Of a stretch of 64,000 nucleotides of DNA, positions 33,810 to 37,061 are shown one piece after another. The translations under genes and the position numbers were made by a program. This stretch comes from Chloroflexota bacterium (lineage in GTDB: Bacteria; Chloroflexota; Dehalococcoidia; Lucifugimonadales; Lucifugimonadaceae), in contig JABIFF010000003.1 of NCBI GenBank assembly GCA_018650845.1, positions 1-64,000 on the forward strand, in the 5' to 3' direction. The notes beneath the pieces were generated by a model. The model was not told where the DNA came from. It saw nothing but the letters and a program-made list of their open reading frames with translations, and did not search any database. Each line of letters begins with the position of its first letter. Position 1 is the first letter of the stretch.

Positions 33810-35360
33810 CTATTTTCCGTGTGTTATCTCCGGGCCAACTACGGCAGCCCAATCGGACGGCGTTCCGTATATCGCTGTTGTGGGGTGATATTCGGCCCAT
33901 CCATACCATTCTGTCGTGATTGAAGGTACGAATTCGAGTTGAGTTCCTTCGAGAGGCCCATCAATGGCGAGACCGGTCGAAGTCCAGAGGGTTCCGGTTT
34001 CTTGATCGGCGTAAATGTTGATCGAAGATATTTCTATTTCGAACGTAAGCGTTTGATCGCCGACAACTCGTGAATATGCTAGCCCCGAATCTCCAGTAGG
34101 CGTGTGAAATACGGCGATTGGCGCATCGGCGAGTGTGTCATTGATGACGCTTCCGTCACGATCGATCAACTGGTGCGGATACGACTTGAATTGGTCATTT
34201 ACTTCAACACCGATCATCAGTGCGTTTACTGGCAAGCGAGTGTCGTTGAAATCGCTGTCGTTACCGACGCTAGCCCCCGGGGTTATGGCTCGATATTGAG
34301 ATTGGAATCCAGTATTCCAGTCGAGCACAGTGGTGTGCGGATAGAGCCGCTGCCACTCTTCCCAAGTGGTGATCTGCATCGGCAGAAACTTTAGTCTTTC
34401 GCCGAGCAATGGACCCGAGAGCGAAAGTCCGTCTAGATGCGTCCAAAGCGTTCCTGTTTCACGATCGGTCATCGAGAAGACGCCATCGATCAGCGCCACG
34501 ACTTCGAAGTTGAGCAACTGACCGTTCACTATGGGATCGAACCCGACCCCTGAATGACAGAGAATTCAGTAGGTGACCAGCCACGGTTCACCGCCCACGG
34601 TGTCGTTGGCGATGTGGTGATACCACATCATATCGAGCGGATAGGCGCGGGCTTCGCCGTTGTTGGCTATGCCCAGAACGTAGGAAGCACTAGTTATGTT
34701 CTGCGAGGCCTCGTCGCGAGTGACGTATGCGGGTTCATCGAGTGGGATGAACTGAGTTTGGCGTGAGATAGGGCCGGGGGTAGGTCGTGGGGTTGGTGCG
34801 AGGGGCGCTATTTCTGTGGCGGTAGGTTCTGGCGTGGGTGTTGGCTCAGCTGCGGGCGCAATTGTTGGCGGTGCGATGGTTGGGCTTGACGCAACTGGGG
34901 ATAGCGGCGTCGGGGCTACCGTAGGTGATCCGGACGGAGTGGGATCGGGTTTGTGATCGGCTGGAACGGTGTTCGGTGTATCAGAGTTGGAAATCGGATT
35001 TGGCGTAGCTATCTCAGGTTCCTGCACTCCGCTATCGCTTCGGCCGGGAAGAGGGGTGACTGAGTTTGATTCTGCTTCGATAGGCGTGAGCGTTGCTGCT
35101 GGACCAAGAGTGGGTTCGACAGTGTCAATTGAACTCGAGTCTTGCGAGGAATTGGCAGTAACCGGCGTTGCCTCGGTAGTAGTGGGCGGCAATTGCCTTG
35201 CCTGTTCAACTACGGCGGTGAGCTCGGAATCGGTTGCTTGGGCGCACGATGTGATCACTGAGATTGCGAACGCGAAAATAACGAGACCTGCGACAGGTCT
35301 AAATGTGTTCTGGATATTTGAGATTTGGTATCTCATATCTACAGAATCGAATCCCCTCAC
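33810..35360 (-). CDS. DUF3179-domain lipoprotein, candidate selenoprotein with in-frame TGA at 34566-34568
   Basis: ORFs 34566..35360 and 33810..34529 are in the same frame; read-through gives ARAYPLDMMWYHHIANDTVGGEPWLVTY[TGA]ILCHSGVGFDPIVNGQLLNFEVVALIDG...DRETGTLWTHLDG, collinear with DUF3179 where TGA replaces Cys of VTYCxxC. Confidence 0.75.
34533..34550 (-). promoter_or_regulatory. candidate bacterial SECIS hairpin
   Basis: On the mRNA: UGA-N15-GGGGUCG-GGUU-CGAUCCC; 7-bp stem, loop starting with GG, loop begins 22 nt after the UGA. Confidence 0.6.
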
Positions 35361-35651
35361 GACACTTCTACTTCTTCGTTACGTTCAGTCTTGCAGTTTG
35401 GGCGTGCCATGCGCATTGGGGCTTGCCCGTGTTTTAGCAGCGTGTTGGAGTAGGTGAGACTAGATTATTTGTTACTCGATCAAAAATTTTCCCGTTTCGC
35501 CAGTTGATTACTACGCCGTTCCTCCTCGCAGTGACAATTTGGTCGTTTTACAGCAAATCGCACGTATAATCGGGCGGTTGAATTTGCAGGTTTAGGGTCA
35601 TTACGAGCTATGGCTTGATTGATCCACCCCAGAAGAGAAAAGAATTTTCGA

Positions 35652-37061
35652 ATGGCAGAAACTAGTTTCGATCTTGTTGTTATTGGTGCGGGACCCGGCG
35701 GCTACCACGCTGCGATTAGGGGCGCTCAGCTAGGCCTAAGCGTTGCGGTTGTTGAAAAAGACGATGGCACAGGCACCGGCGGACTCGGTGGAGTTTGCTT
35801 GAACTGGGGCTGTATTCCTTCAAAGTCGCTTTTGAAGAACGCCGAAGTGGTGAATCACCTTTCGCATGCCGACGAATGGGGCATCGAGGTTGGCGAGTGG
35901 TCGGCAAGCATGTCGAAGGCCGTCGATCGTTCACGCAAGGTTTCGAAGGCTCTCACCAACGGAATCGGATTCCTGTTCAAGAAGAACAAGATCACTCTCG
36001 TTCAGGGCAAGGCGACTTTGAAGTCGTCGACTCAGATCGATGTTGAGGGCGGCGAGACGCTAACTGCCAAGAATATTGTTATCGCAACGGGTGCACGAGC
36101 CCGCAGCTTGCCGGGTCTTGAGATCGACGGCGAGAACATCATCACAGCTCGGCACGCACTCGAACTTCGAGAACAGCCAGAAGCTGTCGCCATCATTGGT
36201 GCATCGGCTATCGGTTGTGAGTTCGCTTACTACTTCAACTCGTACGGCGTGAACGTCAAAATGTTCGAAATGCTCGGTCACCTCGTTCCACGCGAAGACG
36301 AAGAGGTTTCGGTTGAGCTTGAACGTCAGTTCGGTCGACAGGGAATCGAGTTTGCTACTTCTGCCAGCGTTTCAGGCGTTGAGAAGAAGGACGGTCGGCT
36401 CGCTGTTCAGTACGAAGTAGACGGCGAGAAGCAAGAATTCATCTGCGACAAGGTGCTTTTGGGTGTTGGTGTTCAGCCAAACACCGATGGCATTGGTCTT
36501 GAGAACGTTGGTATTACAACCGCAGGTCCTGGCTTCATCGAGGTCGACGGCAACATGCGAACGAACGTCAGCGGTGTTTACGCAGTTGGTGATGTGAACG
36601 GCAAGTTGATGCTTGCTCACGTTGCGTTTGACCAAGGCGTAGTGGCTGCGGAGACGATTGCGGGTCACGATGTTGAGCCTATTGAGGATTATGTAAACGT
36701 TCCTCGTTGTACTTATGCTCAGCCGCAGATCGCTTCTATCGGTCTTACTGAGGCACAGGCTCGTGAGAACGGTATTAATTTGAAGGTTGGCAAGGTGCCG
36801 TTTGCGGTTGCTGGTAAGTCGGTTGCGATCGGCGAGCCTCAAGGCTTCGTGAAGGTGCTGACGGACGATGATTCAGGTGAGGTCGTTGGGGCGCACATTA
36901 TTGGCCCTGAAGCTACCGAGTTGATCGCTGAGATTGGCATGCTGCAGATGCTTGAGGGTACGAACCTCGAGCTGCACAAGATGACTCACGCTCACCCGAC
37001 GTTGTCGGAGGCTGTGAAGGAAGCTGGAGCAGCAGTAACAAACGAAGCCATTCACTTCTAA
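35652..37061 (+). CDS. lpdA: dihydrolipoyl dehydrogenase
   Basis: VVIGAGPGGYHAAIRGAQLG; GGVCLNWGCIPSKSLL; C-terminal HAHPTLSEAVKEAG. Confidence 0.95.
   Translation: MAETSFDLVVIGAGPGGYHAAIRGAQLGLSVAVVEKDDGTGTGGLGGVCLNWGCIPSKSLLKNAEVVNHLSHADEWGIEVGEWSASMSKAVDRSRKVSKALTNGIGFLFKKNKITLVQGKATLKSSTQIDVEGGETLTAKNIVIATGARARSLPGLEIDGENIITARHALELREQPEAVAIIGASAIGCEFAYYFNSYGVNVKMFEMLGHLVPREDEEVSVELERQFGRQGIEFATSASVSGVEKKDGRLAVQYEVDGEKQEFICDKVLLGVGVQPNTDGIGLENVGITTAGPGFIEVDGNMRTNVSGVYAVGDVNGKLMLAHVAFDQGVVAAETIAGHDVEPIEDYVNVPRCTYAQPQIASIGLTEAQARENGINLKVGKVPFAVAGKSVAIGEPQGFVKVLTDDDSGEVVGAHIIGPEATELIAEIGMLQMLEGTNLELHKMTHAHPTLSEAVKEAGAAVTNEAIHF

Follow-up and report, generated by a model that had tools for sequence, protein, structure and literature searches.

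A DUF3179 gene in a marine SAR202 bacterium almost certainly encodes a genuine selenoprotein, as judged by comparative evidence: an in-frame UGA at a conserved cysteine position, a covarying SECIS-type hairpin just downstream, purifying selection on both sides of the codon and a full selenocysteine machinery in the host. The gene lies in a 64-kb stretch of DNA (the window) on contig C8. The assembly totals 2.48 Mb in 24 contigs and is 87% complete. Among named relatives, Candidatus Lucifugimonas marina JH1073 (SAR202, Dehalococcoidia, Chloroflexota) is the nearest, a cultured isolate whose genome is complete (PMC10444878). A term search of the main text of that paper found no mention of selenium, and no paper that links SAR202 with selenoproteins turned up in the literature searched.

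The supposition of an earlier note on this sequence that DUF3179 selenoproteins had not been described is wrong at the family level. DUF3179 is listed as a predicted selenoprotein family with the motif UxxC/T (PMC9312934 Table 1; PMC13188914), and the prediction is credited to Zhang and Gladyshev 2007, from the Olavius algarvensis Delta 1 symbiont (PMC13188914). The SAR202 gene is a new member of this predicted family and not a new family. It shares with the previously predicted DUF3179 selenoprotein the Pfam family (PF11376) and Sec at the UxxC position, but comes from a different host phylum, Chloroflexota, belongs to a distinct, all-Sec clade with mostly Y-U-I-x-C-x-S-G-V/I-G-F/Y, appears to be a lipoprotein with a degenerate second repeat, and has a hairpin register of its own with a 4-nt loop. 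The SECIS evidence for it is unusually complete. The SECIS covariation and the all-Sec clade bring strong comparative evidence to a family listed in reviews as predicted only, and place a DUF3179 selenoprotein in SAR202, marine bacteria that are ubiquitous in the ocean.

Gene architecture

The gene and its features, all on the minus strand, are as follows.

33810..35360 (-): complete gene of a predicted DUF3179 selenoprotein, with 516 codons before the TAG stop (read-through of the open frames; PF11376, 224 bits)
35360 or 35336 (-): alternative starts, GTG or internal ATG, respectively
35240..35336 (-): N-terminal signal segment with lipobox-like VITS-C, likely lipoprotein (from the translation, not a signal-peptide program)
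After the signal segment, to about 34780 (-): Pro/Thr-rich linker (from the translation)
34287..34742 (-): first DUF3179 repeat, with UxxC; predicted Rieske-like beta fold (PF11376 match and model, pLDDT 87.7)
34566..34568 (-): in-frame UGA, predicted selenocysteine 265, aligned with the first Cys of the invariant CxxC
34533..34550 (-): SECIS hairpin, 7-bp stem (34550-34544 with 34539-34533) and GGUU loop (34543-34540), the loop starting 22 nt after UGA
33822..34238 (-): second DUF3179 repeat, UxxC lost (HTPTG), about 27-30% identical to the first

Routine ORF calling breaks the gene into two frames, 34566-35360 (264 aa) and 33810-34529 (239 aa when begun at the first GTG downstream). As the earlier note had observed, the two are in the same frame and separated solely by TGA 34568-34566. 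The read-through product has 516 aa with UGA as residue 265 in the context VTY-U-ILCHSGVGFDP. In a Pfam search it matched DUF3179 at 224 bits (cut-off 27) in two stretches with the UGA inside the domain, and either half alone also matched. The alignment bears out the family consensus given in the earlier note, by which the TGA falls on the first Cys of the DUF3179 CxxC, and the 31 non-UGA homologues used for the tree all have Cys there. The C-terminal part consists of two DUF3179 repeats in tandem, with U/CxxC only in the first, while the N-terminus resembles a lipoprotein signal, VITS-C being lipobox-like; this layout of signal segment and Pro/Thr-rich linker recurs in orthologues. NCBIfam held no model naming the gene (a spurious weak match only), and a PDB sequence search found no relative.

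A GTG start at 34529 would allow the UGA to be a real stop between two separate, split proteins. However, such a stop would interrupt a conserved domain within its CxxC, the downstream start would omit the highly conserved UILCHSGVGFDPI, and the Cys homologues are single unsplit genes, which makes this explanation very unlikely.

A dihydrolipoamide dehydrogenase gene (35619-37061, plus strand) lies divergently to the selenoprotein gene, an arrangement conserved in four genomes (its own, JH1073 and two other relatives; loci L093, L094 and L097). Since this neighbour is transcribed apart from the selenoprotein gene, no functional inference is drawn from it.

The SECIS hairpin

The hairpin GGGGUCG-GGUU-CGAUCCC begins 15 nt after UGA, with a folding energy of -10.2 kcal/mol alone and -15.3 kcal/mol with an additional lower stem, and folds with z = -2.6 relative to dinucleotide shuffles. 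Its sequence is unlike that of the E. coli fdhF SECIS. It resembles the bSECIS consensus in its G-starting 4-nt loop, 7-bp stem and 22-nt spacing, the geometry proposed in the earlier note, and also in its energy. It falls within all limits of the bSECIS model, namely a stem of 4-16 bp, a loop of 3-9 nt with G within its first two positions, a distance of 16-37 nt from UGA and MFE <= -7.5 (PMC13188914). As a control for chance, the 64-kb window was searched for pairs of open frames, of at least 60 and at least 50 codons, with nothing but TGA between them; among 37 such pairs, the DUF3179 site was the only one with a SECIS-like hairpin of <= -7.5 kcal/mol.

The hairpin sequence is partly constrained by the conserved GVGFDP codons, a constraint for which synonymous recoding controls. 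In the clade of the window gene, the stem joins +16 to +22 (counted from UGA) to +27 to +33, and the tetraloop starts with G; all seven pairs are present in 20/21 sequences, compared with a mean of 0.74 and a maximum of 5 over 1000 trials with synonymous codons drawn from the same loci. Paralogues with W-U-P-L-C use another register, in which +14 to +20 are paired to +26 to +32 around a 5-nt loop whose first two positions include a G, and 24 of 25 have a perfect stem against 0.50 expected. Cys homologues, on the other hand, have a perfect stem in only 1/29 and 0/29 cases at the window-clade and paralogue registers, respectively. Moreover, compensatory pair changes amount to 6 double-sided cells in the window clade and 17 in the paralogue class, matched by 0/500 shuffles, and this covariation signal collapses once the register is slid. 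A later phylum-wide sample had the perfect hairpin in 4/4 UGA genes and 0/25 Cys genes. Fold energy relative to synonymous recoding likewise separated UGA from Cys genes (Mann-Whitney p = 1.6e-5, an optimistic value given relatedness).

Selenocysteine machinery of the host

The host genome encodes the full set of tRNA-Sec (UCA anticodon), SelA (428 bits; 516 bits against the equivalog model), SelB (330-350 bits) and SelD (368 bits), so that the sel genes named in the earlier note as a check have all been found. Because SelA is nearly universal in the order (172/197 genomes), co-occurrence with the machinery is by itself weak evidence. In G325 (83% complete), which is among the 20 genomes that carry window-clade genes, no SelA scored above the cut-off.

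That reassignment of the code or suppression makes this UGA a Trp or Cys codon instead is very unlikely: TGA terminates four further long open frames within the window, which is consistent with TGA still being an ordinary stop, the hairpin agrees with the SECIS model, and the Sec machinery is complete. The sequence itself shows the UGA at the conserved Cys, the SECIS, the machinery and purifying selection, while Sec insertion, export and a redox or metal function are inferences. Ribosomes would reach UGA 265, where SelB-GTP with Sec-tRNA(Sec) would bind the covarying hairpin just downstream and Sec would be inserted. The full-length protein might then be exported and lipidated at the lipobox Cys, with the Pro/Thr-rich linker holding it outside the membrane. 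The Sec-Ile-Leu-Cys motif, in a loop of the predicted Rieske-like beta domain, would form either a selenenylsulfide redox centre, which is modestly preferred, or a metal/Fe-S ligand set together with a conserved His 17 residues upstream.

Two tRNA-Sec matches with identical scores sit at the ends of contigs C3 and C17 (loci L007, 1497-1594, and L008, 1-98), which suggests that these contigs abut or overlap at tRNA-Sec; the two matches are probably one gene in an assembly overlap. The SelD gene (C21:78185-79111) has an in-frame TGA and thus probably encodes a selenoprotein itself. It is located about 4 kb from one of the DUF3179 selenoprotein genes on the same contig.

Conservation of the UGA across the order

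The read-through protein was searched against 197 genomes of the order, and the window clade was recruited by protein similarity, irrespective of TGA. The search gave 20 window-clade genes including the window's own, all with TGA, the other 19 having 41-74% identity to the window protein. A maximum-likelihood tree built from 88 DUF3179 genes groups 21 of them in the window clade, all Sec and with support 100/100; a second large group, mostly W-U-P-L-C, also has Sec, and almost every gene of the classical CPLC group has Cys. Sampling outside the window clade was partly chosen for TGA, so the Sec/Cys ratio of the family is not readable from the tree. Two clade-like members from other classes of the phylum have the UGA and a 7-bp hairpin, as read by eye.

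Orthologues carry the UGA at the identical codon and do not show the random stops that, in the earlier note, would have spoken against a selenoprotein. Some matches of the order search list extra stops; among these, the TAG listed for two loci (L072, L073) is probably the gene end overrun by the alignment, because the stop-to-stop segment and the listed frame are equally long, and a third (L082) looks frameshifted, with two segments. The same UGA is present in the complete isolate genome of JH1073 (CP046147.1), which excludes a sequencing error, and this cultured strain makes Sec insertion open to direct testing. Relative to JH1073 and a second relative of the same genus, dN/dS falls from 0.095-0.12 upstream of the UGA to 0.026-0.043 downstream of it, indicating that the downstream part is under protein-level purifying selection. 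That the TGA is a nonsense mutation in a pseudogene or an assembly mistake, as a draft metagenome-type assembly in 24 contigs at 87% completeness might suggest, is extremely improbable given the UGA in 21/21 clade genes and in the isolate, the strong selection downstream and the covarying hairpin.

Within the window's own genome, three of four DUF3179 genes have UGA at the motif. The two besides the window gene, C21:82881-83771 (VTWUPLC) and C12:218776-219645 (VSWUPIC), have it at the same Cys, the latter protein being very divergent with an imperfect hairpin in the paralogue register. The single Cys-type copy (CPLC) is on C13. Cys-type and Sec-type DUF3179 of the same genomes have the domain and the motif position in common, but the Cys type has Cys instead of Sec and no SECIS hairpin.

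Predicted fold and possible function

A full-length AlphaFold model was poor (pLDDT 52), and the fold search based on it was set aside in favour of a single-repeat model built on both repeats (pLDDT 87.7, pTM 0.84). The best 33 PDB fold matches of the latter all had the Rieske fold (ferredoxins, NirD, Rieske oxygenases), with probabilities up to 1.00 and TM-scores (by target) up to 0.58, but E-values of 0.08 or weaker. The predicted Rieske-like fold offers a first testable idea of DUF3179 function.

Instead of forming a thiol-redox pair, the UxxC might belong to a metal site (His-x16-Sec-x2-Cys) within a Rieske-like fold, a reading we regard as possible but doubtful. Besides the fold matches, it draws on conservation among the 88 homologues (His 97%, both motif Cys/Sec positions 100%) and on spacing: DUF3179 has His-x16-[U/C]-x2-C where Rieske proteins have CxH-x16-CxxH, the His-x16-C spacing being equal, and shares with Rieske [2Fe-2S] ferredoxins and NirD the predicted fold and a CPxx...FDxxxG-like second box. 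However, that second box is [U/C]xxC and not CxxH, and the first-box Cys is absent, so that H-x16-U-x2-C departs from the Rieske ligand pattern CxH-x15-17-CxxH. Sequence profiles likewise give no detectable homology: hhalign of DUF3179 against the Rieske profile yielded a probability under 1%, and a Pfam search with the protein no Rieske match. Furthermore, NirD proteins have the same fold and are not known to carry a cluster. Owing to the lack of profile homology and of the first Rieske Cys, DUF3179 is not classed as a Rieske protein.

A selenenylsulfide redox motif is modestly favoured over a rebuilt metal site, since thiol-redox motifs of the UxxC type are frequent among known selenoproteins, with many UxxC entries in the selenoprotein table of PMC9312934. 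A more far-reaching proposal, which we consider unlikely, would make DUF3179 a divergent Rieske-fold domain with His-x16-Sec-x2-Cys as a rebuilt cluster site and Sec as a metal/Fe-S ligand. On this view the protein would be an exported lipoprotein for electron transfer, and the SAR202 clade would be one without any observed replacement of Sec by Cys. As a side observation, another genome of the order (G296, 3.4 Mb) has 59 Rieske-domain matches, an apparent large paralogue expansion.
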